A stretch of 64,000 nucleotides of DNA from Chthoniobacterales bacterium (lineage in GTDB: Bacteria; Verrucomicrobiota; Verrucomicrobiia; Chthoniobacterales; UBA10450), in assembly GCA_003244145.1 (NCBI GenBank), contig QHBM01000024.1, forward strand, positions 1 through 64,000, read 5' to 3'. A model generated the notes under the pieces. That model did no database searches. It was not told the origin of the DNA and saw only the letters and a list, made by a program, of their open reading frames with translations. Shown in pieces: positions 30,861 through 49,251 of the stretch (its first letter is position 1; the number at the start of each line of letters is the position of its first letter). The position numbers and the translations under genes are program-made.

Positions 30861-30868
30861 GTTGGCGC

Positions 30869-31921: not shown

Positions 31922-31945
31922 CCGCGATCGCGTTATAAGCCCGGC

Positions 31946-32806: not shown

Positions 32807-32818
32807 CACTCGGTCAGC

Positions 32819-32994
32819 TTACCCGCCGGTCCTGAACTGATCGTCCTTGTTCTTGAAGAGGATGTTGAACGTCGTCAGCGATCCGTAGCAGCGGGTGATG
32901 TATTGCTGCAGATCGAATTTGTCGGCATCGCTCAGCTTGTCACTCGCGTTCACCTTTTGTTCCAGCACCCGCAGATTGTTCCGGATCATCACGA
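32819..32994 (-). pseudogene. C-terminal part of a split gene (other part at 34825-35211)
   Basis: Minus-strand frame reading VMIRNNLRVLEQKVNASDKL then SDADKFDLQQYITRCYGSLT and ending TFNILFKNKDDQFRTGG. It is helical and lacks an own start with a ribosome site. Joining it to the N-terminal part at the shared ACGA (32991-32994 and 34841-34844) restores one uninterrupted frame of 180 codons reading across the joint as FHKIVMIRNN. The ATG at 33040 that would give a 73-aa ORF lies in inserted DNA. Confidence 0.65.
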
Positions 32995-33106
32995 CAATAT
33001 ATACGCCAAATGCAAAATGGGGATTTGGTGCTCCCATCACCGTTCGCGTTCAAAAGTGGCCGTTCCACAAATTCCCAGGGAGCGCCCCCGTTGTGCTCTG
33101 TCGATA

Positions 33107-33200
33107 TTATGTGTCTGCGCTGCGGAACTGGTCATCTTTGGTCTTGAATAAGACGTTGAACGTCGTCAACGAGCCATAGCAGCGCGTGATGGGATTGCTG
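33107..33200 (-). pseudogene. second, frameshifted copy of the split gene's 3' end
   Basis: Reads ITRCYGSLTTFNVLFKTKDD and QFRSADT, against ITRCYGSLTTFNILFKNKDD and QFRTGG in the copy at 32819. Upstream of ITRC one extra base (CAGCAATCC versus CAGCAATA) breaks the frame, and homology fades beyond it. It lies inside the 1.85 kb that separates the two parts of the split gene. The remaining sequence from 32995 to 33383 shows no other gene. Confidence 0.6.
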
Positions 33201-33383
33201 GGGATTAACTTCAGAGAGGGCACCTTGGTAGTCCTCGTCATTTTCGCCGGCATCAGAGCGGGAATCGGACTTACCGCGTGGAATGCAGCCAAGCGAGCGA
33301 ACGCGCCTTTGCGCGAGCGGATCGCTTCGGCCCGCGATGATTGGGCGCGCCTCCGACACGCGCAACATGCCGCTGCGCTTTAC

Positions 33384-33803
33384 TCAAGTCAGACGGGGAG
33401 AGCAGCCGGACGGAAAGCACTCAAGCCTCAGCCGATTCATCAGGCGAAACTCGTTGTGAGGCATCTCACCGTTCGCGTCCCGCTGAATTTCGCGGCCATT
33501 CCTGAAGAGGAGATAAGTGCAGCGTGCGAACGTGTCAGCCTTAGCCTCGACACTAGGATTCGCGGCCAACAGCCGCAATCGGTAACTGAACCACGAGTGC
33601 CGGTTTGGGAACCGAACGAGGACGAAAGCAACGCCTCGGGAACCGGCTAACAACATTAAGGCCTGTTCTTCGCAATCTGGACAGACGGGGGAATGATTAC
33701 TGATCCATTCGCGAAAGGGTTTGCTCGCGTAAATCGCGATCATCAGCGCGACAAAAACAATCAGCCGCGCTAAGTGAAACCGAAAATTGCCACGCTCGTT
33801 CAC
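33384..33803 (-). CDS. small membrane-anchored protein of unknown function
   Basis: 139 aa. One hydrophobic helix near the N-terminus (ARLIVFVALMIAIYASKPF), then a possible CxxC metal site (SPVCPDCEEQALMLLAG) and a beta-rich part (GVAFVLVRFPNRHSWFSYRLRLLA). Not recognised. It lies inside the DNA that splits the Tudor/CarD-like gene, so it may be cargo of that insertion. An overlapping + strand ORF (33186-33650) looks like a shadow. Confidence 0.5.
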   Translation of the reverse strand: MNERGNFRFHLARLIVFVALMIAIYASKPFREWISNHSPVCPDCEEQALMLLAGSRGVAFVLVRFPNRHSWFSYRLRLLAANPSVEAKADTFARCTYLLFRNGREIQRDANGEMPHNEFRLMNRLRLECFPSGCSPRLT

Positions 33804-33898
33804 TGTCCAACGATGTATCCAACCGAATTATGGCGGGGTTAGTTAATTTCGTGCCCGAGTCAGTGAGGTCGCCCGAAAAACTCAGATCTCATTGTAGG

Positions 33899-34828
33899 CT
33901 ACGCGCTGGACGGCTCGCTCGATCGCTGGGCTTCGAAAAAGAGTGCGAGGATGGGTTTGTCTTCCTCGATCCATGCCTTCATCTCGTTCGGTCTTAACTG
34001 GGGCCGGCCGCGGCGCATAACAAAGAAAAGGCCGGGCGGCGTTTCGATTCTGAGATGAAGCGGCTCCAGGAATTGCCGGACTGCGGGAGTGAAGATCGCC
34101 CGGATCGCGGCCTCGTCTCCGCCGCCAAGGATATATTTCTTACTGAACCTCGGCGTATCGGGGAAGATGATATTTTCGGTGCGGCCCAGCATTGTCCCCA
34201 TTTTCGTATAGAACGTTTGGGGAAAGAGAACAAAGGATGGGAACTTCAGTAACGGCGACTGCATTCTGCTAATCGTGAGGTAATAGGTATAGGTGTATCT
34301 TCCGGCCGAGAGCCCGTCGCCGTCCGAGTATCGGTAATAGAAGCGAGTGAGATCCAGCTCGTCGGCGGTATGGAGGGCCTCCAGCACATTTGAAACAAAG
34401 TGGCCGTGACCAATATTCGCGAGAGAACAGCCGTCGGCCAGCGCCGTGTCCGCCTTGGTCGGGTTTAGGCGAAAGGCAAAGCCGAGCGACTGCGCCATTG
34501 CCTCGAGTTTCTTTGCGCGCATACGGTCCGCGTGAAGGCCGAGCCAAATGATAATCAGGATGAAGGGAATAATCGCACTAACAATCCAGATTACTTGGGC
34601 ATCGGGGAGTTTTGCCGAACTGGACTTTGTCGCGGCGAGCAAACCGGCGGCCTGTGCGTGCACGGCGAGAACAAGAGCCGCACTGGCAAGCGCGGCGATT
34701 TTCAAGATAAGATGACGTTTCGCGGCGATCCCTTTCTTCGATCGAGTCGACCGCAGACTTCTGACCACTGTGGTAATCACGCTTTGCGGTTCCACAAAAT
34801 TTCTTCCAGTGTAGCAGTTATTGCTCAT
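33899..34828 (-). CDS. membrane protein of unknown function within the inserted segment
   Basis: 309 aa from the ATG at 34828, which overlaps the TGA of the interrupted upstream gene (ATGA). There are two N-terminal hydrophobic segments (ILKIAALASAALVLAVHAQAA and VIWIVSAIIPFILIIIWLGL) and a soluble C-terminal domain of about 190 residues (KKLEAMAQSLGFAFRLNP, DLTRFYYRYSDGDG, GGGDEAAIRAIFTPAVRQFL). The C-terminal layout is like DUF3137-type proteins that sense or process unknown targets, but I am not sure. Later starts are possible. Confidence 0.55.
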   Translation of the reverse strand: MSNNCYTGRNFVEPQSVITTVVRSLRSTRSKKGIAAKRHLILKIAALASAALVLAVHAQAAGLLAATKSSSAKLPDAQVIWIVSAIIPFILIIIWLGLHADRMRAKKLEAMAQSLGFAFRLNPTKADTALADGCSLANIGHGHFVSNVLEALHTADELDLTRFYYRYSDGDGLSAGRYTYTYYLTISRMQSPLLKFPSFVLFPQTFYTKMGTMLGRTENIIFPDTPRFSKKYILGGGDEAAIRAIFTPAVRQFLEPLHLRIETPPGLFFVMRRGRPQLRPNEMKAWIEEDKPILALFFEAQRSSEPSSA

Positions 34829-35211
34829 GGCTGCAAGATTACGATCTTGTGAAAGAAAGTTTCGAGCGGCACTTCCTTCGGCTGAAGCGAAGTGTCGGCA
34901 GATTGCATGACCAGCGTCCCCCGCTGCCAGCGACTCGCCAGTCCCTCCACGATCACATCCTTCTGTTCCAACCCCAGCGCCTCCACCACCGCCTGCGCGG
35001 TATCTCGAATGAGATTGGTCAGCGGAACCTGCAACTCGCTCAGCGTCGCGGTCGCCTCCGCCGGTTCGAGATCGCTCGAGGCCGGCGCCACCGTGCGCGG
35101 CGCATCGTCGAACGCGATCTCGGCCGTGTGTTCCGTCAGCGACCTAACGACTCCAACTCCATATTGCGGGTGGCGCACTTTCATTCCAATGTGGAGCGAT
35201 TCGATATTCAC
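34825..35211 (-). pseudogene. N-terminal part of a Tudor/CarD-like protein gene, interrupted
   Basis: 128 codons from a GTG at 35211 (alternative ATG 35184). The start ESLHIGMKVRHPQYGVGVVRSL and AEIAFDDAPRTVAP form a small beta barrel like the CarD/UvrD-C Tudor module; a helical part follows (LTNLIRDTAQAVVEALGLE), then VEGLASRWQRGTLVMQ and ETFFHKIVILQP. The final four residues come from inserted DNA: the true continuation is the fragment at 32819-32994. The truncated product may still be made. It is divergent from the transporter gene. Confidence 0.65.
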
Positions 35212-35300
35212 AGTCGGAGAACCTGCGAGATCGCCGGCAAAACCGCAACCGCGATATCGCCCGGCGCGCTTTTTGATTGTTTCGCTGGCAACGGAACCGC

Positions 35301-36695
35301 ATGCTCCGACTCGCCGTGACCGGAACCACCACCACCACCGCCTATCCACCCGGTTTTCGGCCGCGCCGCGGATTGAACTGGTTCATCATCGGCCTGCTTT
35401 ACGCGTCGTTCTACACCTGCCGCTATAACTTTCGCTGGGCCACGCCGGGAATGGTCCAGGAGTTCGGCTTCAACAAATTTCAGATCACCAGCATGCTCAG
35501 CGCCTGGTCGCTCGCCTACGGCACGGGCCAATTGATCAATGGCCTCCTCACCGATCGGATCGGCGGGAAACCGGCAATGTTGATCGGCGCCTTCGGCACG
35601 ATTGTCATCAACCTGGTCTACGGCTACGCGTCGTTTCTCGGCACGTTCGCCACCTTCTCTCTCATCTGGTTGATGAATGGCTATCTCCAATCCTTCGGCG
35701 CGCCCGGCATGATCAAGATGAATGCGGCGTGGTTTCGTCGCACCGAACGCGGGACCTTCGCCGGCATCTTCGGCTTCATGATTCAGCTCGGCCAGTTCGC
35801 CATCAACAATCTCGCGCCCATCATCCTCGCCGGTTTCACGGTTGGCGTTCTCGTAGTGGCTCCGGGCGAATGGCGCTGGCTCTTCCGTATCCCACCACTG
35901 ATTACCGCCTCGGCCGCGATTTTGCTCGCGCTTTTCGTGAAACCAACACCGGAGGCGGCGGGCTATCCGGGAGTGATCGAACACGAGGGTGAGGGCGGCA
36001 CCGATGGCAAGGTCACCGTGAGTCTGCGCGAGTCGTTCGTCACCATCTTCACTCATCCCCTCATTTGGTTTTACGCGACTGCTTACGCTTGCACGGGGGC
36101 GGTGCGAAATAGTTCCGATCAGCTCGCGATTCTCTATTTCGTCGAGCAATTGAAGCTCAATATGGAAGCTAAACCGGCCGCGGTGTTCTGGACCATGAAC
36201 GCGATGCCGCTCGTCGCGGTGTTAGCAGCGTTTAGCGCCGGCGTGGTTTCCGACAAGATCTTCAAGGGCCGTCGTTCACCGGTCGCGATGGGCCTCTACC
36301 TTTTCGAGACTGTCGTCATCCTTGTGGCCGCGGGCGTGATCATGTCGGGCGCGGTCGGCCCCACGCCTGTCGGGATTTTCCTGGGCTGCTTGTTTCTGGT
36401 GCTGATCGCGCTGACGGCGAACTCCACTCACGCGATCATCGGAACGGCCGCGCCCATGGATATAGGCGGGCGAAGGATGGCGGGCTTCGCTTCCGGCGTA
36501 ATCGATTCCTTCCAATATTACGGCACCGCCATTGCGCTGCCCTGCACAGGCTGGTTGATCGATCGCTACGGATGGGGCGTGTGGTATCCCACGATGGCGA
36601 GTTTCGGCGCCATTGGAGGTTGCGCGATGCTGATGGTGATGCGCAAACAGAAGCGCATGCTCGCCACCGGCGATCCGCGCGCAGTGGCCCGCTAG
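35301..36695 (+). CDS. organophosphate:phosphate antiporter (MFS, GlpT/UhpT-like)
   Basis: 464 aa from the ATG at 35301, with twelve membrane helices. The N-terminus LNWFIIGLLYASFYTCRYNF and GVLTD-like NGLLTDRIGGKPAMLIG place it in the OPA family, which swaps glycerol-3-phosphate or hexose phosphates for phosphate. The conserved Arg in CRYNFRW corresponds to the substrate-binding Arg of GlpT. It is fed by no adjacent catabolic gene, so the substrate is open. Its stop overlaps that of the convergent radical SAM gene in CTAG. Confidence 0.85.
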   Translation: MLRLAVTGTTTTTAYPPGFRPRRGLNWFIIGLLYASFYTCRYNFRWATPGMVQEFGFNKFQITSMLSAWSLAYGTGQLINGLLTDRIGGKPAMLIGAFGTIVINLVYGYASFLGTFATFSLIWLMNGYLQSFGAPGMIKMNAAWFRRTERGTFAGIFGFMIQLGQFAINNLAPIILAGFTVGVLVVAPGEWRWLFRIPPLITASAAILLALFVKPTPEAAGYPGVIEHEGEGGTDGKVTVSLRESFVTIFTHPLIWFYATAYACTGAVRNSSDQLAILYFVEQLKLNMEAKPAAVFWTMNAMPLVAVLAAFSAGVVSDKIFKGRRSPVAMGLYLFETVVILVAAGVIMSGAVGPTPVGIFLGCLFLVLIALTANSTHAIIGTAAPMDIGGRRMAGFASGVIDSFQYYGTAIALPCTGWLIDRYGWGVWYPTMASFGAIGGCAMLMVMRKQKRMLATGDPRAVAR

Positions 36696-37822
36696 AAAAG
36701 ATTGAGCTGTTCGCGCGGTCGCCGGAACGCGGCGGTCGAGAGTTCGGTCCGCCCTCCGATCCCGTAGCGCCGGCAACTTACTTCAAACATCGATCGGATC
36801 TGCTCGGCGAAAATTCCTTCGCCCTTTGTCCGGAATCCCCAGCGGGTGTCATTCAATTTCGTTCCGCCGCGAATGTGGCGAATGCGTTCGAGCACCTTCT
36901 GTTTCTTGTCCGGAAAATGTTCGTCGAGCCAATGTTCGAAGAGCGGCGCAATCGCCCACGGTAACCGCACGATCGTGTAGCCGGCGAATTGCGCGCCAGC
37001 TCGCGCGCAGGCTTCGACGATTTTGGGAACCTCGTGGTCTGTCAGGCCGGGGATGATCGGCGCCACCATCACGCCTACTGGAATTCCGGCGGCATGTAAG
37101 GCGGCGACCGTCTCTAATCGCGCCGCGGGCGATGAAGTACGCGGTTCGAGCACGCGTTGCAATTCCGGGTCGAGCGAAGTCACCGATACATTCACCGCGG
37201 CGGCCTGGTGCTGCGCGAGTTCGCCGAGCAGATCAATGTCGCGGGTCACGAGCCGGTTCTTGGTGATGATCGCGACCGGGTTGCGAAACTTCGCCAACAC
37301 CTCGAGGCATCCGCGCGTGATGCGCAGCTTCCGCTCCACCGGCTGATACGGGTCGGTCACTCCGCTCATAACAAGCACCTGCGGCTTCCATTTTGGCGAT
37401 GACAATTCCGACTCGAGCAACTTCGCCGCGTCTGTTTTCACCATGATCTTGCTCTCGAAATCGAGGCCGGCGGACATTCCGAGGTATTCGTGGGTCGGTC
37501 GGGCGAAGCAATAAATGCAGCCGTGTTCGCAGCCTCGATATGGATTCAAGCTCGTTTCGAAACCAACGTCGGGGCTGCTGTTGCGCGCGATGATCGTCCT
37601 GGTTCCGTCGCGAAAGAATTGCGTCGCGCGTCGCGGTTTTTCCTCATCATCGCTCGGATCGAGCTGGACCACATCGGCATCGCCCAAATCGACATGGAGT
37701 TTTTCAAACCGATTGGCGGGATTCCAGGACGCGCTGCGGCCGTAAATAGCCGGGGAGGGGGGCGGCGCCTCTTCAACAATCGGGACGAATTTCTTTTTCG
37801 GCGTCTTTCCCAGCTTCGGCAC
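36692..37822 (-). CDS. radical SAM protein, PA0069/SplB-like
   Basis: 376 aa. The 4Fe-4S cluster motif is CEHGCIYCFAR (CxxxCxxC). The RNSSPDVGFETSLNPYRGCEHG context, LVMSGVTDPYQPVERKLRITRGCLEVL and AIITKNRLVTRDIDLL segments match the PA0069 family, distantly related to spore photoproduct lyase. The reaction of this family is unknown. A Lys/Pro-rich N-terminus (KLGKTPKKKFVPIVEEAPPP) precedes the barrel. Confidence 0.88.
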   Translation of the reverse strand: MPKLGKTPKKKFVPIVEEAPPPSPAIYGRSASWNPANRFEKLHVDLGDADVVQLDPSDDEEKPRRATQFFRDGTRTIIARNSSPDVGFETSLNPYRGCEHGCIYCFARPTHEYLGMSAGLDFESKIMVKTDAAKLLESELSSPKWKPQVLVMSGVTDPYQPVERKLRITRGCLEVLAKFRNPVAIITKNRLVTRDIDLLGELAQHQAAAVNVSVTSLDPELQRVLEPRTSSPAARLETVAALHAAGIPVGVMVAPIIPGLTDHEVPKIVEACARAGAQFAGYTIVRLPWAIAPLFEHWLDEHFPDKKQKVLERIRHIRGGTKLNDTRWGFRTKGEGIFAEQIRSMFEVSCRRYGIGGRTELSTAAFRRPREQLNLF

Positions 37823-37893
37823 GCTGCAAGTTCACATGAACATATTGGCGTGTCGAGCTAAAGGGTGGCACAATTCTCGCGACCTCGAACGCT

Positions 37894-37981
37894 GGAGGGG
37901 TGGTCGAGTGGTTGATGGCTCCGGTCTTGAAAACCGGCAGGGCGCAAGCCCTCGTGGGTTCGAATCCCACCCCCTCCGCCA
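37894..37981 (+). tRNA. tRNA-Ser(UGA)
   Basis: 88 nt with a full cloverleaf. The acceptor stem pairs GGAGGGG (37894-37900) with CCCCTCC (37971-37977), G is the discriminator base, and CCA is encoded. The anticodon loop is CTTGAAA inside the stem CCGGT/ACCGG, giving TGA. A long variable arm (AGGGCGCAAGCCCT) and the T loop GGTTCGAATCC confirm a class II serine tRNA. Confidence 0.97.
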
Positions 37982-37983
37982 CC

Positions 37984-38151
37984 TCACCAACCCCAACCGC
38001 CGCGCGGCCCGGTGTCATGATGAGGAGTTGTTTCCCCAGCGACCGGTATCTTCTCGTCCACAGAGAGGTTTTCCGATGCACAACCATTCAACATCATCGC
38101 CACAAGAATCGGGACGATCAGAATAAGGCGGCTCAAGCTTCGAAAGCGCAT
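37984..38151 (-). CDS. small lipoprotein of unknown function
   Basis: 55 aa from the ATG at 38151 (an ATG at 38166 is also in frame). A lipoprotein signal LSRLILIVPILVAMMLNGC with lipobox LNGC is followed by a 37-residue polar tail (ASENLSVDEKIPVAGETTPH) ending in GGWGW. It ends 2 bp from the tRNA on the opposite strand. Entericidin-type and other tiny lipoproteins look similar; function unknown. Confidence 0.5.
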   Translation of the reverse strand: MRFRSLSRLILIVPILVAMMLNGCASENLSVDEKIPVAGETTPHHDTGPRGGWGW

Positions 38152-38276
38152 GGATTCATTTAACATTATCTCGCTCCGCCATCATGGAAAATGCGGAGGA
38201 ATCCGCCATTGCCGTTGCTCCTCGATCACGGTCCGCTATGGTGCCGCTCCGTCCTGAAACACTGACACTCAAAAAA

Positions 38277-38810
38277 ATGTTGAATCGACTTGCACAATTC
38301 TGCGCCCTCGGCGCGCTCCTCGCTGGCTTCACCGGCTGCGGCACCGTCAGCGACCTGGTCACCTCGCACGTGCCGGAACGGCATTCCGGCCGGCCCTCGA
38401 TCGTGGTGAACTTGCAAGCGCAGGAAGCGTATCTCTTTCGCGGAAAGAATCGAACCGCGACGTCGCGGATTTCGAGCGGCCGCGAAGGCCATCGCACGCC
38501 CATCGGCCGCTTTGCTGTGATCAGGAAAGATCTCGATCACCGTTCCAGCCTTTACGGCAGCTATGTGGACGACTCCGGCAAGGTCGTTAAGGGCAATGTC
38601 GATAGCCGGAAAGATTCCAAACCTCAGCACTCCCATTTCGTCGGTGCACCGATGCCCTATTTTCTCGAATTTTCTCCGGGCTACGGTCTGCACCAGGGCT
38701 ACTTGCCGGGCGTGCCCGCATCGCATGGATGCATCCGCATGCCTTACTGGAAAGCGCGCCAGTTTTTCGACGCCGCCCGCGTGGGGACGCCGGTGGCCGT
38801 AAAACCGTAG
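38277..38810 (+). CDS. lipoprotein L,D-transpeptidase (YkuD family)
   Basis: 177 aa from the ATG at 38277, chosen because it gives a lipobox signal (FCALGALLAGFTGC). The catalytic motif HQGYLPGVPASHGCIRMP (HxxxxxxxxxSHGCIR) is complete, and RISSGREGHRTPIGRFAVI is the usual YkuD N-terminal part. It cross-links or trims peptidoglycan or attaches proteins to it. The insert NVDSRKDSKPQHSHFVGAPM is common in this subfamily. Upstream in-frame codons back to 38184 lack features. Confidence 0.9.
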   Translation: MLNRLAQFCALGALLAGFTGCGTVSDLVTSHVPERHSGRPSIVVNLQAQEAYLFRGKNRTATSRISSGREGHRTPIGRFAVIRKDLDHRSSLYGSYVDDSGKVVKGNVDSRKDSKPQHSHFVGAPMPYFLEFSPGYGLHQGYLPGVPASHGCIRMPYWKARQFFDAARVGTPVAVKP

Positions 38811-38817
38811 CGTGTCG

Positions 38818-39204
38818 TTAGGCCGCGCGCCGGCTGCCGGTCACCCCGTAGATGATGAAGCTTCCCACGATCAGGGCAAAGCATGGAAACAAGCGGATAA
38901 TGCCGGGTCCTTGAGCCGACAACCATTCGACCATTGCTTGCGCCCTCGCGACTCCCAGGCAGGCAGTCGCGACACCCGCCAGCAAAATGAGAACGCCAAA
39001 GACGCGCAAAGCGTTGGGTGCGCGGGAGGCGTGAGCCGCCAACAGAAGCACCAGCCCCAAGCCGACCCGCACTGCCGCGGCCACGTAGACCCCGACGGGC
39101 GTCGCGGCGTGGCGAGCAATCGCAATGAGCTGTTCTGGCCAGATCAGCCCGATAACACCAATAGCAAGAGCAAGGATGCCGAAAATGAGTGCGAGTATTT
39201 TCAT
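38818..39204 (-). CDS. four-helix membrane protein of unknown function
   Basis: 128 aa from the ATG at 39204 with four hydrophobic helices (ILALIFGILALAIGVIGLIW, GVYVAAAVRVGLGLVLLLA, LRVFGVLILLAGVATACLG, CFALIVGSFIIYGVTG). No family recognised. Its TAA lies in a copy of the RCCTAACGA motif. It is the leftmost gene of a run of nine minus-strand genes with small products. Confidence 0.55.
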   Translation of the reverse strand: MKILALIFGILALAIGVIGLIWPEQLIAIARHAATPVGVYVAAAVRVGLGLVLLLAAHASRAPNALRVFGVLILLAGVATACLGVARAQAMVEWLSAQGPGIIRLFPCFALIVGSFIIYGVTGSRRAA

Positions 39205-39245
39205 GTGCCTTGTTCCTCTAGTAGCGAGAATCAAAGTAACTCAGA

Positions 39246-39914
39246 CTAGCTAACGCGAGCTTTCTTTCCTTCCGTCAGGCTAGAGATGGCAGTGTCATAA
39301 ACGCCAAAGGCTTCCCGGCAATTGGTAACGGTAGTGCCCAAGTCTCGGGTCAGCCCGTCCTGCAAGCCATAGATCCAGCCGTGCACCGCCAATTCCTGTC
39401 CACGCTCCCACGCTTCGCGGGCGATCGTGGTCTGGCAGACGTTAGCCACCTGCTCGATGACGTTCAATTCGCCCAGGCGGTCAGCAGCATCGGCATCGCC
39501 AGTTACACCGGCCAAATACTTCTCGTGCCTTTGTCGCACATCTTGAAGATGACGCAGCCAGTTATCACTTAGTCCTAGCCGGTCGCCCCGAACCGTGGCC
39601 AGCACGCCGCTGCATCCATAGTGCCCGCAAACGATAATGTGGCGCACCTTCAAAATATCTACGGCAAACTGAATGACCGACAAACAGTTAAGATCGGTGT
39701 GCACAACCAGGTTGGCGACATTCCGATGGACGAACAATTCTCCGGGAAGCAGTCCCACGATTTGGTTCGCGGGCACCCGGCTGTCGGAGCAACCAATCCA
39801 CAGATAGGTCGGGAATTGTTGTCGTGACAGCTTGAGGAAGAAATCCGGATCTTCCTGTCGAATCCGCCCGGCCCAAGCCTTGTTGTTCTCAAAAAGTTGG
39901 TTCAGTGTTTCCAT
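39246..39914 (-). CDS. can: beta-class carbonic anhydrase
   Basis: 222 aa from the ATG at 39914. Interconverts CO2 and bicarbonate. The zinc ligands are in GCSDSRVPAN and CGHYGCSGV (Cys, Asp-Arg dyad, His, Cys), and ELFVHRNVANLV is the family motif between them. The length and W-rich N-terminus (LNQLFENNKAWAGRI) match the E. coli Can type. It belongs to the minus-strand accessory run, so it may be cassette cargo, but no attC-like site was found next to it. Confidence 0.92.
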   Translation of the reverse strand: METLNQLFENNKAWAGRIRQEDPDFFLKLSRQQFPTYLWIGCSDSRVPANQIVGLLPGELFVHRNVANLVVHTDLNCLSVIQFAVDILKVRHIIVCGHYGCSGVLATVRGDRLGLSDNWLRHLQDVRQRHEKYLAGVTGDADAADRLGELNVIEQVANVCQTTIAREAWERGQELAVHGWIYGLQDGLTRDLGTTVTNCREAFGVYDTAISSLTEGKKARVS

Positions 39915-39970
39915 AGGCAATCGATTACGACTGGCCAACGACCGATCGTGCTCGGGTTGCGTGCTGAGAC

Positions 39971-40441
39971 TTACCTATCCTGTTCGTAAGCCCGCTGCAA
40001 CGTCTTGAGATCGAGCTTATCCATTTGCATCACGGCCTTCATGACTCTGTCCAACCCATCCGCGTCCTTCAACATCTCGGCCAGGGCCGAGGGCACGACC
40101 TGCCATGACAGTCCGTATTTGTCCTTAAGCCAGCCGCAGCGTGATTTCTCTCCGCCCGCGGACAGCTTCTCCCAGTAACTGTCTATTTCTTCCTGCGTGT
40201 CGCAGTTCACGACAAAGGAGACGGATTCATTAAACTTGAATAAGGGGCCGCCGTTCAAGGCTGTAAATTTCTGCCCGTTCAACTCAAAGGCGGCAGTCAT
40301 GACCGTCCCTTTCGGTCCAGATCCCGTCTCTCCGTAACGGGTAACGGTGATGACCTTGGAATTCGGGAAGAGAGAGACATAAAAATTCATGGCCTCCTCG
40401 GCCTGGTTATCGAACCAGATAAACGGAGTTATTTCTTGCAT
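39971..40441 (-). CDS. VOC-family protein, PhnB-like
   Basis: 156 aa. ITPFIWFDNQAEEAMNFYVSLFPNSKV at the N-terminus and FELNGQKFTALNGGPLFKFNESVSFVVNC are the PhnB/YjdN type of the glyoxalase/VOC fold (sometimes labelled 3-demethylubiquinone methyltransferase, without good reason). The C-terminus (WLKDKYGLSWQVVPSALAEML) is typical. Activity unknown. Confidence 0.88.
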   Translation of the reverse strand: MQEITPFIWFDNQAEEAMNFYVSLFPNSKVITVTRYGETGSGPKGTVMTAAFELNGQKFTALNGGPLFKFNESVSFVVNCDTQEEIDSYWEKLSAGGEKSRCGWLKDKYGLSWQVVPSALAEMLKDADGLDRVMKAVMQMDKLDLKTLQRAYEQDR

Positions 40442-40475
40442 ATCGGTTTACTGCTTTGTGTTAACGGCTAGGGCG

Positions 40476-40820
40476 CTATTTCGTAGGACGAAACACCTGG
40501 CCGGCCTCGTCGAACACGGCCCAATTGTCGGACTCCTGAAAGAAAAAAACCTTCATCAGAAGGCTGCCGTCGGCGTTGAGAATCTGCACGGGATAGATCA
40601 CGGCATCTTTGGGAGCAATCTTGCCATCGGAGACCGTTGTGCTTTCGCGCTTGAACTTTTGTTCCGGCATCATGAACGCGAGTTTCCGGACAACTTCTTC
40701 TGGCGGACCGGATTTTTCCGTGTCCGCGCTTGCCGGCGCCGGCGACTCCTGTCCGAAAACTGAAACCGTAGCGAACAACGTGAATAAAACGACGCAGGCG
40801 ATGAGCGGGTGTGTTTTCAT
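40476..40820 (-). CDS. small exported protein of unknown function
   Basis: 114 aa with signal peptide MKTHPLIACVVLFTLFATVSVFG. The mature part is helical then beta-like (EVVRKLAFMMPEQKFKREST, AVIYPVQILNADGSLLMKVF, NWAVFDEAGQVFRPTK). Not recognised. TTGACA occurs upstream on the coding strand near 40850, without a clear -10 box. Confidence 0.5.
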   Translation of the reverse strand: MKTHPLIACVVLFTLFATVSVFGQESPAPASADTEKSGPPEEVVRKLAFMMPEQKFKRESTTVSDGKIAPKDAVIYPVQILNADGSLLMKVFFFQESDNWAVFDEAGQVFRPTK

Positions 40821-40870
40821 TTTGGTTGGATGTGAAGATTCTGAACGCGCTCAAGGTGTCAACAGCGCAT

Positions 40871-41161
40871 TCAACGACGGCGCATCAGCGGAACGCCTAC
40901 GGTGCGGGGTAGATTGGCGCGGGCGGGTGCGCTTTCCGGGCCCCGTTGCTCATGGGAAGCAAGGCGCTGAGGCTCGATGGTGATCCACAAATGGTTCGAT
41001 TCCGGGAGTCCGGCGGAAGCCTGTTCAAATGTGTCGCAACGGAAGCTCACGGTCAGAGGATCGCCAGCGGTTGGCTGGAATGGCCCCATCAGAAAAGGAC
41101 AGACCCAAGTGAATGCCAAGCCGATGAACAGAAGAGTGATAATGAAGGTAAAGAGGTTCAT
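40871..41161 (-). CDS. small membrane protein, possible cassette ORF
   Basis: 96 aa with one N-terminal helix (LFTFIITLLFIGLAFTWVCPFL) and a polar remainder. The last 30 residues (PESAPARANLPRTVGVPLMR) have no coding character and end at a stop inside GTTGAAT (complement of 40869-40875), which fits the degenerate GTTRRRY recombination core. It starts 5 bp after a GTTAAGC core at the end of the preceding gene. No paired attC arms could be found, so its cassette nature is unproven. Confidence 0.45.
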   Translation of the reverse strand: MNLFTFIITLLFIGLAFTWVCPFLMGPFQPTAGDPLTVSFRCDTFEQASAGLPESNHLWITIEPQRLASHEQRGPESAPARANLPRTVGVPLMRRR

Positions 41162-41167
41162 TAGTGC

Positions 41168-41695
41168 TTAACGCGAATCAGCAGATTTCAACTCAATGGA
41201 ATGCCATTCGCCTCCTTCGTGGCTTGGTGCTTGGTAGTGAAGATAAATTCTCTCGAATCCGTGGGCCGTGGGGATGAGTAGTCGCTCAACGCTGGCGTCT
41301 ACGACGTGCGACTCTCCGCTGAGCGCAGCCTGCTGGGAGACACAGAGCCACACGCGGTCAACGCCTGTATACGTCCGACAACACTTTTCTTGGATTTCGC
41401 GCTGTATCCTAGCGAAGATTTTCTCGTCCGGGTTTTCGCCACTCCAGATGCGAATCACGCTTCCTTTCGGCGCGTGAATCTTCCCGCGCGCAAGGCTCCA
41501 CTCACGTTCCGCTTGTGAGTCGTCGTAATAGGCGGTCGCTACTTCGATGCCAAGAAGCTCGTTTTCGCAGGAGTAGATAACGTCAGGTTCGCCGCGATCA
41601 TTGCCCTCGCGAAGAAATCTCGCTGGCAGTGCTAGATTCTTGACCAGCCGGTTGCAGACCGCGATCTCATGTTGTCGCTTTAGATGTCGCGTCAT
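41168..41695 (-). CDS. cassette gene, possible PD-(D/E)XK-like nuclease
   Basis: 175 aa from the ATG at 41695, only 5 bp after the attC core GTTAGGC (41707-41701); such tight spacing is typical of integron cassettes. The segment GEPDVIYSCENELLGIEVATAYY, a Pro-Asp followed at about 12 residues by GIEV, resembles the core of PD-(D/E)XK nucleases and of uncharacterised restriction-like proteins. The lysine is not obvious, so activity is uncertain. The gene ends in GTTAAGC (complement of 41166-41172). A longer frame to 41749 would run through the attC. Confidence 0.6.
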   Translation of the reverse strand: MTRHLKRQHEIAVCNRLVKNLALPARFLREGNDRGEPDVIYSCENELLGIEVATAYYDDSQAEREWSLARGKIHAPKGSVIRIWSGENPDEKIFARIQREIQEKCCRTYTGVDRVWLCVSQQAALSGESHVVDASVERLLIPTAHGFERIYLHYQAPSHEGGEWHSIELKSADSR

Positions 41696-41700
41696 AGTCC

Positions 41701-41811
41701 GCCTAACGAGACAAAGCTGAGCCACCCCTGGCGGGAGCGAGCGTGGCAAACATGGGGAGCTGCTTCATAAAATCAAATGTGGACTTCACAGCGGCCAGCG
41801 GTTGGTTAGGT
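41701..41811 (-). repeat. attC-like integron recombination site
   Basis: 111 bp. Coding-strand ends are ACCTAAC (41811-41805) and GTTAGGC (41707-41701), both fitting RYYYAAC/GTTRRRY. Inside the ends, CAACCGCTGGCC pairs with GGCTCAGCTTTG with one unpaired base, as expected for an extrahelical base. A reading frame passes through the whole site and stops in the core. Confidence 0.65.
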
Positions 41812-41860
41812 CTCGGCGGTACCATTGGTCTGAGCGTGATCCTGTCGGAGTTCGGCTCGG

Positions 41861-42223
41861 TTACTTCGACGGTGACTCCGGCTTCTCAAAATCCGTCGTT
41901 TGCTCCGGGAATCGAGCGAACGCCCTCGCCAATTTCGGGCTGGGCCGCAGGAGCCGCCGATCGCTGCCCATTGGTCCCCAGTAGAACCACTTCGCCCACC
42001 AGGAAACGGGTTTGGCGAGTCTTATCGCGCAGACAAACGGTGCCAATTCAATCGGCGAAAACAGATTAAAAAGGTAATTCCCGGTGATTAATGGACCAAC
42101 AGCAATCGCAATGCCGGCACCAATTGCGAGGATTGCGGTCCGGGTTTTCCATTTCAAGATGCACACGATCACGCAAACGAGCCAGACTGCGCCGACGACT
42201 AGGTCAACTTGTGTTTGGGTCAT
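41861..42223 (-). CDS. cassette-borne membrane protein of unknown function
   Basis: 120 aa. Two or three hydrophobic segments (VDLVVGAVWLVCVIVCILKW, AILAIGAGIAIAVGPLITG, and a weaker one around WWAKWFYWGPMG), then a charged tail (RRLLRPSPKLARAFARFPEQ). Not recognised. It ends about 50 bp before the attC at 41811. A +1 frame continues coding-like through the attC, so a frameshift near the 3' end is possible. Confidence 0.45.
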   Translation of the reverse strand: MTQTQVDLVVGAVWLVCVIVCILKWKTRTAILAIGAGIAIAVGPLITGNYLFNLFSPIELAPFVCAIRLAKPVSWWAKWFYWGPMGSDRRLLRPSPKLARAFARFPEQTTDFEKPESPSK

Positions 42224-42262
42224 TTGGGTCGTGGCGTGTTTACTTGGTTTTCGCCGATGGGG

Positions 42263-42430
42263 TCAAGGTGCTTTTCCCGAAAACGAGCCATCGCTTACGA
42301 GGTTGAGAAGTCCGCACGTAATAAGAATCGCAGCCACTAAAACCCAGCGAATCCAACCTCCGTAACAAAATACGGCAATAAGCTCCGACATGAGGGCGAA
42401 TGCCAAAATGCCTCCGAGTAGTTTTTTCAT
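42263..42430 (-). CDS. very small two-helix membrane protein
   Basis: 55 aa, MKKLLGGILAFALMSELIAV then FCYGGWIRWVLVAAILITCG and a short polar end (LVSDGSFSGKAP). It sits between the genes at 42459 and 41861 with gaps of 28 and 39 bp on the same strand. Short, but the spacing and hydrophobic pattern support it as real. Confidence 0.4.
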   Translation of the reverse strand: MKKLLGGILAFALMSELIAVFCYGGWIRWVLVAAILITCGLLNLVSDGSFSGKAP

Positions 42431-42458
42431 TGGCGACCGGTCGTGGGGCCTTGGGGTA

Positions 42459-43094
42459 TCATAGGCCGTCGACCCATTTGTAGAACGGAACAAGCGTGTT
42501 ACCTCTTGTAACATGCCAAGGCTGGCTGAGGTAAACATATCTGCGGTCAACCCTCTCCAAAAATTTGAGGGCTTCGACAGTCTTCTTGAGAACTGTGCGT
42601 GCTGTCGCACGGTGAATGCGAGTTGGAAAGGCATCCAAATGCAAGCGACGGGTCGCACGTGTTCCCGAATCGACGACGCGGTTAAACTTGTCGTCGCCGT
42701 ACGCAGAAAGTTTTTCGGCAGAGTTAAGCGCCATTCCACTGCTATCGTCCCAGCGTATGGCGGCTGTCCAAATATGGTTGTGCGCGATGACGTCGCGAAG
42801 CACAAAGACTTCCTCGATGTCATCAGCCAAGTCACCGGCGCCAAGCCGCTTTAATGTGTCGACCGCACTTTCCCGCTGGGGCTCGTTGCGCACGTAGCGT
42901 GCGCGGTTCAACGCGGACTCCACGATCAGCGCGGAAAGAACAATAACGGAAACGGCGTAACCGTTTTCAAGCATTCCCGCCTGTACTTCGTTTGGACCTT
43001 TGGGATCTGACTGCTCCAACAGCTCGAATAGATCGAATATTGGCTGCAAAAGATTGACGAATAAGACAGACACGTAATTAATGTTTGGCGGCAT
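42459..43094 (-). CDS. cassette gene, HEPN-like protein
   Basis: 211 aa from the ATG at 43094 (a GTG at 43112 is 8 bp after the attC core and is also plausible). The protein is all-alpha with the segment VFVLRDVIAHNHIW; R-x4-H-x-H there fits the R-x4-6-H active site of HEPN RNases. Flanking helices (GYAVSVIVLSALIVESALNRAR before, and KKTVEALKFLERVDRRYVYL after) agree with a HEPN bundle. HEPN proteins are frequent in toxin-antitoxin and abortive-infection systems, but no MNT partner is adjacent. Function is inferred. Confidence 0.55.
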   Translation of the reverse strand: MPPNINYVSVLFVNLLQPIFDLFELLEQSDPKGPNEVQAGMLENGYAVSVIVLSALIVESALNRARYVRNEPQRESAVDTLKRLGAGDLADDIEEVFVLRDVIAHNHIWTAAIRWDDSSGMALNSAEKLSAYGDDKFNRVVDSGTRATRRLHLDAFPTRIHRATARTVLKKTVEALKFLERVDRRYVYLSQPWHVTRGNTLVPFYKWVDGL

Positions 43095-43120
43095 GGCTAG
43101 TGATGGCGACACGCAATTAG

Positions 43121-43244
43121 GCCTAACGAGACGGAGATGAGCGACCGCCGCCGAGAGCGGACGCGAATCGTGGTGAAGGGGTTTTAGTCACGCAAGACGT
43201 AAGCACACAGCGGGCGGCGGTTCGCTCCATCGAATTGGTTAGAC
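43121..43244 (-). repeat. attC-like integron recombination site
   Basis: 124 bp. Coding-strand ends GTCTAAC (43244-43238) and GTTAGGC (43127-43121). The arms are strongly complementary: GATGGAGCGAACCGCCGCC near one end against the inverted copy of GATGAGCGACCGCCGCC near the other, differing by two single extra bases. The TAA stop of the gene at 43239 lies inside the first core, a usual cassette arrangement. Confidence 0.75.
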
Positions 43245-43724
43245 CTCTTGGTAACGCTCTGCACTGGCGGCGAGAAAAAGAGCAAACGCTCGAACTCCGA
43301 AAACAAAAGCGGCGAGAAGAACAACCTGAAATGCGATAGAGAACAGTCCCTTAAAAAGGCAAGCAACGACAGAAAGCGGAACGATGCCAACGCCGCCCAT
43401 CAGAATGCCGATGACCACGCCGAAGCCGCCCCAAAGCGTGTAAGTGAGAAGAAGGCTCCAGACCCAGACGGTGAGTCCATAAACGTAGGACGTGACATAA
43501 ATACCGGCGGCGGCAAAACCGCGCGTCTTTCGAAATATCGCGAGTGGTAAGAGAACCACAACGGTAACGGCGAGTGCGAGGACGAACAACACTATCAGAA
43601 TGGGATAGACTTTGTCGGCCAGCCACGTGCCGCCCTGCACGAGCAGAAAAACGACCACGATAATGGCGGCGAATCCCACGACGCCAAGTGCAAAGCCACC
43701 GATGTTTTTGAGGATCTGGTTCAC
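43239..43724 (-). CDS. cassette-borne multi-helix membrane protein
   Basis: 161 aa from a GTG at 43724 that lies 10 bp after the GTTAGAC core at 43741-43735. Four to five hydrophobic helices (GFALGVVGFAAIIVVVFLLV, PILIVLFVLALAVTVVVLLP, GLTVWVWSLLLTYTLWGGFG, VIGILMGGVGIVPLSVVACL, AFQVVLLAAFVFGVRAFALF). No family recognised. The TAA stop is embedded in the attC core. Confidence 0.6.
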   Translation of the reverse strand: MNQILKNIGGFALGVVGFAAIIVVVFLLVQGGTWLADKVYPILIVLFVLALAVTVVVLLPLAIFRKTRGFAAAGIYVTSYVYGLTVWVWSLLLTYTLWGGFGVVIGILMGGVGIVPLSVVACLFKGLFSIAFQVVLLAAFVFGVRAFALFLAASAERYQEV

Positions 43725-43734
43725 GCGCGCATAG

Positions 43735-43741
43735 GTCTAAC
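43735..43741 (-). other. integron core site at the right end of the cassette block
   Basis: GTTAGAC on the minus strand, followed 10 bp later by the first cassette gene. It matches GTTRRRY and is identical in type to the core in the attC at 43238-43244. No complete partner arm is visible upstream within the usual attC length, so it could be the remains of attI or of a truncated attC. Confidence 0.5.
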
Positions 43742-43749
43742 TACAATTC

Positions 43750-43768
43750 GACGAAACCGCGTTTCGTC
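43750..43768. other. short perfect hairpin between cassette block and hppD
   Basis: GACGAAAC (43750-43757), loop CGC, GTTTCGTC (43761-43768). It lies in the 246-bp gap 43742-43987, in which I see no gene. It may be a terminator-like structure or a remnant of a recombination site. Confidence 0.4.
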
Positions 43769-43987
43769 TATTTCGGCGTTCGCCGCGGGAACGACCGGGG
43801 GAAAAGCGAAACATGGTTTCTCCTTTACCAAACACTGCCCGTGGCCACAAGCCCGAACTCTTCGATCACCGGATGATTCAACGGGCGCAGCGTGCCACCC
43901 GCAGCGCGTTGCGCAGGCCGACTCGACGCCATTTGAAAGCTGGTCGCTTTCGGTTAACGTTGGGTTGCCCGCGAAATATAAATTCTT

Positions 43988-45121
43988 ATGGAAACAACCA
44001 TCGCTGATCCGAAAACAAGCCCGACTGCTGAAACTGATTTTCTTCCGCTCCAGGGAACCGATTACGTGGAGTTTTATGTCGGAAACGCCAAGCAGGCCGC
44101 GCATTACTACAAGACCGCGTTCGGTTTTCAATCGCTCGCCTATGCCGGCCCGGAGACCGGGCTGAAAGATCGCGCCAGCTACGTTATCCGGCAGAACAAA
44201 CTGACCTTTGTTCTGACCACACCAATGCGGCCGAACAATCCGATCGCCGATCATGTCGTCTTGCATGGCGACGGCGTGAAGTTCCTCGCCCTCAAAGTCG
44301 AAGACGCGACCTCCGCCTGGAACGAAACGACGAAGCGGGGCGGCAAAAGTTACATGGAACCGACGCCGCTGAAGGACGAAAAGGGGCGCGTCGTGATGAG
44401 CGGCATCCACACTTACGGCGACACGGTCCATCTCTTCATTGAGCGCGGCGATTACAATGGCGTGTTCATGCCAGGCTTCCGCAAATGGGAGAGCGACTAC
44501 AATCCGCCCGACACTGGCTTGCTCTACGTCGATCATTGCGTCGGCAACGTCGGTTGGAACCAGATGAATCCGTGGGTGAAATTCTACGAAGATGTGATGG
44601 GCTTCCGCAACATCCTCACCTTCGACGACAAGGATATCTCCACCGAATACTCCGCGCTCATGAGCAAAGTGATGAGTAACGGAAATGGCTTCGTGAAGTT
44701 TCCGATCAACGAGCCGGCCGAGGGCAAAAAGAAATCGCAGGTGGAAGAATATCTGGAGTTCTACAACGGCGAAGGGGTGCAACATTGCGCGGTCGCGACG
44801 AACGACATCGTCAAAACCGTGACTGACCTCCAGAGCCGCGGGGTCGAGTTCCTCAAGATCCCGACCACTTATTACGATACCTTGCCGGAGCGCGTCGGTC
44901 ACATCGATGAAGACCTTGGGCCGCTCGCGCGTCTTGGCATTCTCGTCGATCGCGATAATGAAGGCTACCTGCTCCAGATTTTCACCAAGCCCGTCGAAGA
45001 CCGGCCCACTCTCTTTTTCGAAATCATCCAGCGCAAAGGAGCGAAGAGTTTCGGCAAAGGTAATTTCAAAGCGCTCTTCGAAGCACTGGAGAAGGAGCAG
45101 GACGCTCGAGGCAATCTCTAA
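43988..45121 (+). CDS. hppD: 4-hydroxyphenylpyruvate dioxygenase
   Basis: Non-haem iron enzyme converting 4-hydroxyphenylpyruvate to homogentisate in tyrosine breakdown. 377 aa. The two VOC domains are visible. Iron ligands fall in YVDHCVGNVGWNQMNPWV, VQHCAVATNDI and the C-terminal LFFEIIQRKGAKSFGKGNFK, which is the family fingerprint. It is 11 bp upstream of hmgA, with a good AAGGAG site (45120-45125) before the hmgA ATG. Confidence 0.95.
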   Translation: METTIADPKTSPTAETDFLPLQGTDYVEFYVGNAKQAAHYYKTAFGFQSLAYAGPETGLKDRASYVIRQNKLTFVLTTPMRPNNPIADHVVLHGDGVKFLALKVEDATSAWNETTKRGGKSYMEPTPLKDEKGRVVMSGIHTYGDTVHLFIERGDYNGVFMPGFRKWESDYNPPDTGLLYVDHCVGNVGWNQMNPWVKFYEDVMGFRNILTFDDKDISTEYSALMSKVMSNGNGFVKFPINEPAEGKKKSQVEEYLEFYNGEGVQHCAVATNDIVKTVTDLQSRGVEFLKIPTTYYDTLPERVGHIDEDLGPLARLGILVDRDNEGYLLQIFTKPVEDRPTLFFEIIQRKGAKSFGKGNFKALFEALEKEQDARGNL

Positions 45122-46329: not shown

Positions 46330-49251
46330 CTAGTTCCAGTCAGGCGGCTGCGCCGTCCGGGACATGATTTCCTGGAACCTCGGATCCTTCCGGATGCCGT
46401 CCCAAACCGGATCGAACTTCAACCGGCCGTAGTCTGGTCCGGCGGGCAGGTGCGCGATCGTAGCTAATTGTTCGAGCGCCGCTGCGCCTTCTCCAAGTTG
46501 GGCGTAAACCTCCGCGAGGAGCAGGATCTGACCCGGCCCCTCGAGCGCATCGCGCGATAACGGAACCAATTCTACAGCATGCTTCGCTACGCGAATGGCA
46601 TCCTCCTTCCGGCCAAGTCCCGCGTAGGCGACACTAAGCCCGCTTAGCGCATCCAGATCATCAGGTGTTAGCGCCACTGACTTCTGATAATAATCGAGAG
46701 CGGCGGAATAGTAATCCCGCGCCTTCTCCTGTTCGCCACGCATCTTTGCTATTATTCCTTCCCAAGGCATTGAATATTTTCTCTCGGGGGGAAGCGTGGC
46801 GATCAGCGCAGAGGCGCGATCGAGGTCGCGTGCGAAAATGGCCAGTTGAATCAATCGGGTGGTGCCCCAGACTGTCCGGAGCGGCGCGTTTTCCAGGACC
46901 GATCGAGCTTCCTCCAATTTTCCCAAGCCGAGCCGGCAATAAGATCGGTAAAGCCAGATCACGTCATCATCCGGGGAAAACTGCTTGATCGCACGATCGG
47001 CGAACTCTTCAGCTTTCTTGAATTGCCGCAATGCGATGTAGCTCTCCAGAAGTTCGACGGGAGTGAAATGATTGTGCGGGTCTAATTCGACAGCAGCCTC
47101 GGCATCTCTCAACGCGTCCTTCCAGCGACCATGCCGTCGCTCCGCCAGCGCGAGGAGTTCGGTAAACTCCGCCTTATCGCGCGGAACGCCCGTGCCCAAC
47201 AGCTCCTGCAGCTCGCGCTCAAAATCGCGTGAAGCGCGATAATAGCGCGCCATCGCGAGATGCGCGTCCGGTAAGTGAGGAGCCAGGCGCACGGCCGTCT
47301 CCGCGGCGTCCTTGCCTCCGAGCAACGATTCTTTGGACGGATTCACAAAACGGTGAACGTCGATATACGTCTTCGAGAGAAGGCAGTAGGCGAGAACAAA
47401 CTGCGGATCGCGCTCGATTGTGGAACGGAGCAGGTCGATTGCGCGCGAATAGTCGCGTTGGTAAAAAGCCTGGAGCGCGCGCAAATAGAGATCATAAGCT
47501 GCCAGGTCGCGCGTCGGCGCGTTGGCTAATGCGCTCACTTCTTCTCGCGAGAACTTCGCATTCATCTGCGACGCGATTGTTTGGACGATTTCGCTTTCGA
47601 GCGAAAAGACTTCCTCCAACTTTTTTTCGTAGCGCTGCTCCCAAATTTTGGCATCGGTCCGCGGGTCAATCAGGCGGACATTGATCCGCAGAAGCTCGCC
47701 GGACTTTTGCACGCTACCCTCGAGGACGTAAGCGACGCCCAGGACTCGTGCGATTTCGCGGCGGCTTGTCGCCCGGCCGCGATAGGGAGCGACGCTGTTG
47801 CGGCTTATGACCTTTAACTCGGATGCCTGCGTCAGCCCGTCGAGGATGTTGTCATGAATGCCATCGACAAAGTAGGCGTCCGCAGCATTCGCGGCGAGGC
47901 TTTCGAAAGGCAGGACCGCACTGCCAGGAGTGATGCTCGCGAAAGGCAGAACGGCGATACTCTTCTTTGACGGCGCCGCGATCGGCGAAACCTCCGGCTG
48001 TTTGCGGCTCAAGAAAAAGCGACTACCCAGGAGCAGCAGAGTTAAAGCCGAGGCGACCGCAAGAACGGCCAGAGCAAATCGCAGCGACCGGTTCCTTGAG
48101 AGGGTGCGTCGAAGGACGTAAGCCGGCTCGCCCGAGCGGACAAGGATCGCTTTGCCCGCGAGGTGACGCTGGACATCGTCGGCGAAGCTTTTTACGGAGG
48201 CGTAACGCCGCGCTGGATTTTTCTGCAGGGCGCAAAGGACGATCGCGTCCAAGTCTCCTCGAAGACGCCGTTGGCGCGCTGCATCCTCGCCGACGGAACT
48301 TGGCGGGTGCGGCTCTTGTTCGCAAAGAACCGTGAGCAGTTCGTCGAGAGTTGGATTTCGATGAGGAAACCGGTGCGGTTTGGATCCTGAAAGTATTTCG
48401 TAGAGCAGGATACCGAGCGCATAGACATCAGTCGACTCGGTCACGGCCTCGCCCCTGGCCTGCTCGGGTGAAGCCGAAACCGGCGTTAACAGTTCGCCAC
48501 CTGGCGCGGTGGCTTTCATCGGATCAGTCGCGCCCAGCATCACCTTGGCGATGCCAAAATCGAGCAACTTCACATCTCCTTTTGCCGTCACGAGGATGTT
48601 GCTCGCCTTCAGATCGCGGTGCACGACCGAGTTGGCGTGGGCAGCTTCCACCGCTGCGCAAATTTTCAGGAACAGCTCCAGCCGCGAAGAGAGGGAGGCA
48701 TTGCTTTCCTCCAGAAAGCGAGTGACTGGCACGCCCTCGACGTATTCCATGACGAAATACTGACAGCCATCGACCGTGACGCCGGCGTCTAAGAGCCGGG
48801 CGATATTCGGATGGTCGAGGCGCGCCAGGACCTGACGTTCGGAGTGGAAACGCTGGATCATCTCTTCTGTGTCGACTCCGGAGTTGAGCAGCTTGATCGC
48901 GACCTCTTTCTCGAAGTATCCATCTGCCCGCGCGGCGAGGTAGACGGTTCCCATTCCGCCACGCCCGATCTCGCGTGTAGCTACATAGGCGCCGATCCGC
49001 TTGCCGATCTGGGAAACGCCCTCACGCCGAATCCGTCTCACGGCATTTTCCGCGCATGCTTCGAGATCGTCGTTAGCGCTTCGGCGCAGAATTTCCGCTT
49101 CCGCCAGGAGGGATTCAGCCTCAAGCAGCAGCGCCTGATCGCCGGAACAGGAGCGCTCCACAAACGCCAGGCGAGCGCTTGTCGACTCCTCCTCAAACGC
49201 ATCAGCGAGAATCGACTTCAATTGCTGCCATCGCTGAGGATCCATGCTCAT
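46330..49251 (-). CDS. membrane Ser/Thr protein kinase with TPR receptor domain
   Basis: 973 aa from ATG 49251, which overlaps the sigma-factor stop in TGATG. Kinase domain (about residues 85-350): GRGGMGTVYLAARADGYFEKE, VAIKLL, HRDLKASNILV, LLDFGIAKV, SASPEQARGE. A membrane helix (FALAVLAVASALTLLLLGSRFF) follows near residue 400, then the CadC/FlgO-like segment KSIAVLPFASI ... YFVDGIHDNILDGLTQASEL, and eight or more TPR-like repeats to the C-terminus. The sigma factor and kinase are adjacent as in many Acidobacteriota and Verrucomicrobiota, so the kinase probably modulates that regulon; the signal is unknown. Confidence 0.9.
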   Translation of the reverse strand: MSMDPQRWQQLKSILADAFEEESTSARLAFVERSCSGDQALLLEAESLLAEAEILRRSANDDLEACAENAVRRIRREGVSQIGKRIGAYVATREIGRGGMGTVYLAARADGYFEKEVAIKLLNSGVDTEEMIQRFHSERQVLARLDHPNIARLLDAGVTVDGCQYFVMEYVEGVPVTRFLEESNASLSSRLELFLKICAAVEAAHANSVVHRDLKASNILVTAKGDVKLLDFGIAKVMLGATDPMKATAPGGELLTPVSASPEQARGEAVTESTDVYALGILLYEILSGSKPHRFPHRNPTLDELLTVLCEQEPHPPSSVGEDAARQRRLRGDLDAIVLCALQKNPARRYASVKSFADDVQRHLAGKAILVRSGEPAYVLRRTLSRNRSLRFALAVLAVASALTLLLLGSRFFLSRKQPEVSPIAAPSKKSIAVLPFASITPGSAVLPFESLAANAADAYFVDGIHDNILDGLTQASELKVISRNSVAPYRGRATSRREIARVLGVAYVLEGSVQKSGELLRINVRLIDPRTDAKIWEQRYEKKLEEVFSLESEIVQTIASQMNAKFSREEVSALANAPTRDLAAYDLYLRALQAFYQRDYSRAIDLLRSTIERDPQFVLAYCLLSKTYIDVHRFVNPSKESLLGGKDAAETAVRLAPHLPDAHLAMARYYRASRDFERELQELLGTGVPRDKAEFTELLALAERRHGRWKDALRDAEAAVELDPHNHFTPVELLESYIALRQFKKAEEFADRAIKQFSPDDDVIWLYRSYCRLGLGKLEEARSVLENAPLRTVWGTTRLIQLAIFARDLDRASALIATLPPERKYSMPWEGIIAKMRGEQEKARDYYSAALDYYQKSVALTPDDLDALSGLSVAYAGLGRKEDAIRVAKHAVELVPLSRDALEGPGQILLLAEVYAQLGEGAAALEQLATIAHLPAGPDYGRLKFDPVWDGIRKDPRFQEIMSRTAQPPDWN

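Follow-up and report, generated by a model that had tools for sequence, protein, structure and literature searches.

Genes and recombination sites of the locus

The DNA analysed (the window) comprises bases 1-64000 of the 86-kb contig C151, which belongs to a metagenome-assembled genome (MAG) of 3.6 Mb in 173 contigs that is 88% complete. The host is a soil member of the Verrucomicrobiota (Chthoniobacterales), and this stretch of its chromosome holds what appears to be an integron remnant. The phylum had been proposed from the DNA letters only and was borne out by the named relatives of hmgA (up to 97% identity), which are MAGs of Spartobacteria/Chthoniobacterales. The features of the locus are listed in Table 1. 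As predicted, all cassette genes are located on the minus strand, three of them start a few bases past a core, and the stop codon of one gene falls within a core.

Table 1. Features of the integron remnant and its surroundings (positions in the window)
Feature	Position	Strand	Description
intI 5' stub	43813..43866	+	18 codons long (MVSPLPNTARGHKPELFD), oriented away from the array
Putative deletion junction	43867..43932		Remainder of intI missing; hppD-upstream sequence common to relatives starts at 43917-43932 (blastn)
attI	43735..43778	-	Crossover core GTTAGAC at 43735-43741; R2 42.4 bits, E 6e-9 (window not in model); blastn match to the attI of G046
Inverted repeat	43750-43768		Perfect, 8 bp, GACGAAAC-cgc-GTTTCGTC, within attI
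Gene A	43239..43724	-	161 aa, membrane-protein-like; GTG start at 43724, 10 bp past the attI core; TAA stop inside the attC2 core
attC2	43121..43244	-	Undamaged; ends R''/R', inner stem carrying extrahelical bases; R1 105.9 bits, E 1.3e-26; folds better than shuffles
Gene B	42459..43112	-	217 aa; GTG start at 43112, 8 bp past a core; R-x4-H motif (RDVIAH) of HEPN ribonucleases
55-aa ORF	42263..42430	-	Small, membrane-protein-like; travels with gene B
120-aa ORF	41861..42223	-	Membrane-protein-like; between the pair of gene B and 55-aa ORF and attC1
attC1	41701..41811	-	Damaged; 13-nt deletion between CCAA repeats, L'' arm gone; R1 57 bits, E 2.9e-13
Gene C	41168..41695	-	175 aa; ATG start at 41695, 5 bp past the attC1 core; own attC not found

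Clusters of attC sites lacking an integrase are termed CALINs in the definition of IntegronFinder, and they have been proposed to be degraded integrons (PMC9024848). The locus corresponds to this definition: two attC sites, one of them damaged, lie within 1.5 kb, the cassette genes are codirectional, and the window contains no complete intI. The nearest one is found 40 kb away, and beside the array there is an 18-codon stub alone. The CALIN reading of the original prediction was supported by this combination of two attC sites without neighbouring intI. CALINs are frequent, and how they arose is mostly a matter of assumption. The window locus differs in that a recognisable attI and a truncated intI start are kept, from which an origin by deletion of intI can be read.

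The two attC sites

A covariance model (R1) was built from 45 attC sites (alignment A1) of congeners and family members, i.e. from the genus and family of the host, with the window excluded. In its structure, R''/R' is combined with an inner stem whose coding-strand 5' arm carries two extrahelical bases, the polarity usually seen where the bottom strand recombines. In A1, 95.1% of the cells in 24 pairs were paired compared to 80.8% in shuffled and 20-44% in slid alignments. Changes on both sides occurred in 14 of these pairs, and the covariation exceeded that of all 500 shuffles.

Searching the contig, R1 gave strong matches at exactly the two predicted sites, both on the minus strand and both with RYYYAAC/GTTRRRY ends, as well as at two attC sites beside a complete intI described below; none other was found in the 64 kb of the window. 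With filters switched off on 38500-44500, R1 added chance-level matches alone, and no attC was detected after gene C. The array therefore has no defined left end, and gene C could be a native gene. A scan against Rfam, where there is no attC family, yielded a single tRNA. Places similar to the window attC sites are numerous in every congener.

Inverted inner arms had been described for both sites. This holds for attC2, which possesses the typical ends together with an imperfect inner stem that can fold and contains extrahelical bases. Its inner-arm score is 28 (28-29 for the two attC sites beside the complete intI), and it folds better than its shuffles on both strands (z=-1.88/-2.61). attC1 has the ends only; it fails the simple arm test, the arms noted there pair by coincidence, and the true inner stem is lost. 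When aligned to R1, attC1 exhibits a gap of 13 positions in the 5' arm and is 111 nt long compared to mostly 123-124 in the relatives. The sequence CCAA[TCGCTGGAGCCAA]CCGCTGG of the relatives reads CCAACCGCTGG in attC1, indicating that a segment of the TCGCTGGAGCCAA type was lost from between two CCAA repeats. Folding of attC1 was no better than that of shuffles (z=0.35/0.49), which is consistent with a 13-nt deletion removing the L'' arm.

As the core motifs are short and degenerate, it might be argued that these sites arose by chance, as inverted repeats in a stretch of ordinary, inherited genes. This explanation carries practically no weight in view of the model E-values of 1e-26 and 3e-13, the absence of genes A and C from 213 genomes of the order, and the occurrence of gene B as a cassette in another genus. 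Furthermore, in mononucleotide shuffles of the window no RYYYAAC/GTTRRRY pair with complementary ends scored 20 or more for its inner arms, so that no candidate came near the value of attC2.

Cassette genes and cargo

No family was found for genes A, B and C in Pfam, NCBIfam and PADLOC, nor for the cargo in comparisons with PDB sequences, folds, plasmids and viral contigs, for which the gene set differed by search. Relatives of genes A and C were absent from the 213 genomes of the order. Gene B has a relative of 82% identity in a genome of another genus (G042), located between attC sites of which the upstream one is degraded; a second, partial match was detected in G063. In G042 the 55-aa ORF is also positioned directly 3' of gene B, and an attC directly follows the pair. 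These sequences show that two genera share the gene B cassette. No attC was detected between the pair of gene B and 55-aa ORF and the 120-aa ORF of the window, suggesting a fused cassette: the 120-aa ORF is probably a second cassette joined to that of gene B.

Gene B encodes a putative HEPN-like protein. RD-x-IAH of the motif is conserved (RDVIAH in the window, RDSIAH in the G042 homologue), and an AlphaFold model calculated without alignment is helical, with a low-confidence pLDDT of 53.6 and no significant fold match. The HEPN assignment is plausible, the motif being at most its basis. For gene C, a PD-(D/E)XK-like protein had been considered. The sequence EPDV...GIEVAT lacks the lysine of PD-(D/E)XK, neither a profile nor a PDB match was obtained, and the AlphaFold model without alignment (pLDDT 38.5) was unusable, so that a motif is at most what may support this label.

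attI and the remains of an integrase gene

The third core GTTAGAC, noted at the right end of the array, is present, but it is neither part of an attC nor an orphan core; it is the crossover core of an attI. The window attI matches that of G046, a genome of another genus, where the site adjoins a complete intI; identity is 82% over 103 bp (blastn, E 9e-21), and the similarity at DNA level runs from attI through the ATG of the integrase gene. The stub MVSPLPNTARGHKPELFD shares 8 of 18 residues with the N-terminus of the G046 IntI (MVDPLPGASPAGKPKLLE), and its BLOSUM62 score of 43 was reached by none of 2000 shuffles; after this, similarity ends. The 18-residue stub was not listed by tblastn at E<0.5. 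Similar N-terminal stubs are located beside other orphan attI sites (L204, L208, L220). The loss of similarity after the stub, together with the hppD-shared sequence beginning shortly behind it, indicates that a deletion probably took intI from about codon 19 onwards, reaching close to hppD. In the window, attI is therefore present without an adjoining complete intI gene, the latter being cut to 18 codons.

The attI homology and the intI stub argue for a decayed integron and not for a loose cassette cluster. We regard it as very probable (about 0.88) that the locus represents the remains of a chromosomal integron, formed by capture of cassettes at attI and followed by deletion of intI and decay of the array. 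An integrase of the G046 type, encoded divergently from the array, would have inserted cassettes at attI by recombining it with the folded bottom strand of attC. Thereafter intI would have lost everything from about codon 19 to a point shortly before hppD, while the 18-codon stub, attI and the cassettes stayed behind. attC1 would have lost its 13 nt as well, probably by slippage between the two CCAA repeats, and the last gene, gene C, would remain without detectable attC. The array should no longer be able to rearrange in cis, while attC2 might in principle still be usable by the complete integrase 40 kb away. Points against this explanation are the shortness of the stub (18 residues, 8 identical) and its absence from the tblastn matches at E<0.5, the undefined left end of the array, the fragmented and incomplete MAG, and the origin of both models from the genus and family of the host.

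Alternatively, an integrase might have placed the cassettes in an attG-type secondary site close to hppD, without a full integron ever having existed at this position. A first core without upstream attC is the expected leftover of such an insertion, a complete integrase is encoded on the same contig, and single scattered attC sites occur elsewhere in the genome. However, the sequence preceding the core is homologous to the attI of a complete integron and runs into an intI start, and an attG site would have neither. For the third core, an attG insertion was rejected because of the attI homology and the stub, and the explanation as a whole is quite improbable.

The hppD locus in relatives

Among 38 hppD-hmgA loci of relatives, attC sites were found nearby in the congener G022 alone (L067), with other cassettes and a different attI type. 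A gene order shared with many relatives, which would be typical for ordinary inherited genes, was thus not observed, and the arrangement in the window is, as far as the sequences tell, not ordinary inherited gene order.

The possibility that assembly or binning joined integron DNA of another organism to the contig was considered, too. The MAG consists of many contigs, integron arrays break assemblies, and C151 itself ends inside the array of the complete integron. Such an artefact is nevertheless highly improbable, for the locus is internal to the 86-kb contig with genes continuous on both sides, and G022 likewise carries an attI-headed array upstream of hppD.

The gene order left of the array (window 28000-43900) is not common to relatives at the hppD locus, and its pieces are scattered to different places in each congener, which places the array at a synteny break. 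At the end of the G022 array (L067:5796-5822) a collapsed attC (ATCTAAC, 13 nt, GTTAGAT, minus strand) is located beside a transposase-like gene.

Complete integrons on the contig and in the family

The original statement that intI is lacking was correct for the window, which contains no complete intI, but not for the contig. A complete intI is located at contig position 83912-84871 (TIGR02249, 470.9 bits, cut-off 265) and is followed by attI and two attC sites, before the contig ends inside the array. The attI of this integron is of a different type from the window attI. That the CALIN of the window is part of the array of the complete integron was ruled out by the gap of 40 kb and the different attI type.

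The complete integron of the contig is of the same kind as the sedentary chromosomal integrons of Vibrio with divergent intI: attI lies by the intI start, and the attC sites form a homogeneous family. Differences are the host, a member of the Chthoniobacterales, the attI with its covarying inverted repeat and, in the window, the deleted intI. In Treponema phagedenis, attC sites and cassettes were kept after the lineage had lost intI (PMC3607928). The window resembles this case since attC sites and cassettes outlast intI. The remnants described for T. phagedenis are attC sites and cassettes, whereas our locus additionally keeps attI and an intI stub, and the genome contains a second integron.

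Verrucomicrobiota are listed among the carriers of integrons (PMC8618304), and full-text searches gave little more; the original remark that integrons and their cargo are little described in this phylum is therefore fair. The window locus itself is of a known kind. Its attI and intI stub would show one CALIN arising by deletion of the integrase gene, in a phylum with barely described integrons. The unexpected parts are the attI repeat and the abundance of attI units without intI.

Several further arrangements were observed in these genomes. Contigs C164, C143, C98, C25, C81, C92 and C102 of G000 carry scattered single or paired attC sites, mostly degraded, away from the complete intI. A stretch of about 47 kb in G023 (L145-L147; G023:C54:1-60000) contains many cassettes and ends with an intI match at 47689-48513, i.e. 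an integron array of the size known from Vibrio in a Chthoniobacterales MAG; at least 123 attC sites are present in this genome. A second integron layout exists in the family, with attI at the 3' end of intI and integrase and cassettes codirectional as in Treponema (L024:2470-2532, L149:6585-6626, G043:C78, G080:C114 and G009:C84); the two attI sites read from these loci carry CGTCTAATTCTCGTTAG.

The attI inverted repeat and attI units without integrase

The attI sites beside complete integrases have an inverted repeat in common, which ends 13 bases ahead of the core end. In an alignment of 14 attI sites (A2, ungapped save one), changes on both sides were detected in 15 of 20 pairs, and 68% of the cells were paired compared to 31-42% in slid alignments. 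The values for 21 sites, adjoining intI or orphan and with the window excluded (A3), are 89.8% and 25-44%. The shuffle control is inflated by relatedness, so that the slide control weighs more. Such covariation may reflect folding or else a palindromic operator in which the two half-sites change in step.

attI has been described as a double-stranded substrate, direct repeats being present in attI1 and absent from attIA (PMC8946536), and as less conserved than attC (PMC3607928). Full-text searches, the scope of which lay mostly outside the subscription literature, revealed no account of attI sites with an inverted repeat that covaries; the repeat is a concrete new lead.

In general, attI sites are too variable to be modelled. 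In the genus and family of the host a model (R2) could be built, for which the window was not used. R2 was validated by position at 47 loci of the genus outside the model: 35 of them were followed by an attC on the same strand and no more than 1.6 kb away, 3 were preceded by one, and none had an attC on the opposite strand. The median distance from orphan attI to first attC was 394 bp. Few of the 47 loci show intI (the N-terminal stubs mentioned above and fragments at L218 and L232). At E<=1e-6, R2 matched 72 of the 83 genomes of the GTDB family and 7 of 130 others in the order, while strong intI matches were obtained in 34 of the 83 in one count and in 37 in another. The model hence makes attI units without integrase findable, and according to its matches most genomes of this Chthoniobacterales family hold units of attI and cassettes without integrase. 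Three congeners possess attI-headed units although intI was not found; in G025, 97% complete, no intI was found besides 39 attC sites and 17 R2 matches.

These units raise the question whether arrays without integrase are dead or served in trans, which becomes testable by strain comparison and assay. The window attI and its cassettes might be a live landing site, one of several dispersed expression platforms of the integrase 40 kb away. Orphan attI units are numerous per genome and mostly begin with a single cassette at a regular distance, attC2 is undamaged and belongs to the attC family of the complete integron, and the window attI keeps a perfect inverted repeat. We consider such use in trans, the main alternative, unlikely, because the contig carries a different attI type at each of its two loci and non-cognate pairs of attI and IntI are reported to recombine poorly (PMC8946536). 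In addition, attC1 is broken, and the three congeners mentioned above have units without detected intI. The remains of a chromosomal integron thus stay the preferred reading of the window locus.

For the family as a whole, a distributed system can be proposed tentatively, though it is rather doubtful: integrons would consist of scattered mini-arrays headed by attI without an integrase of their own, and the inverted repeat of attI would be kept through use in trans by any integrase present. If this is true, the repeat would mark a structured or dimer-bound site, unlike the double-stranded attI described so far.

For one unit (L211) an empty site was sought in congeners; its left and right flanks are in different places there, so that no clean empty site exists. 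This unit lies, as the window array does, at a break in synteny. In G022, three units headed by attI (L194, L196 and L155) share an identical stretch of about 250 bp at contig ends, which is probably an insertion sequence. L157:2793-2836 and L209:2487-2551 represent an orthologous locus in two species, with a 2.5-kb flank that is 78% identical up to attI; despite this shared flank, the inverted repeat of the two attI sites differs in sequence and length.
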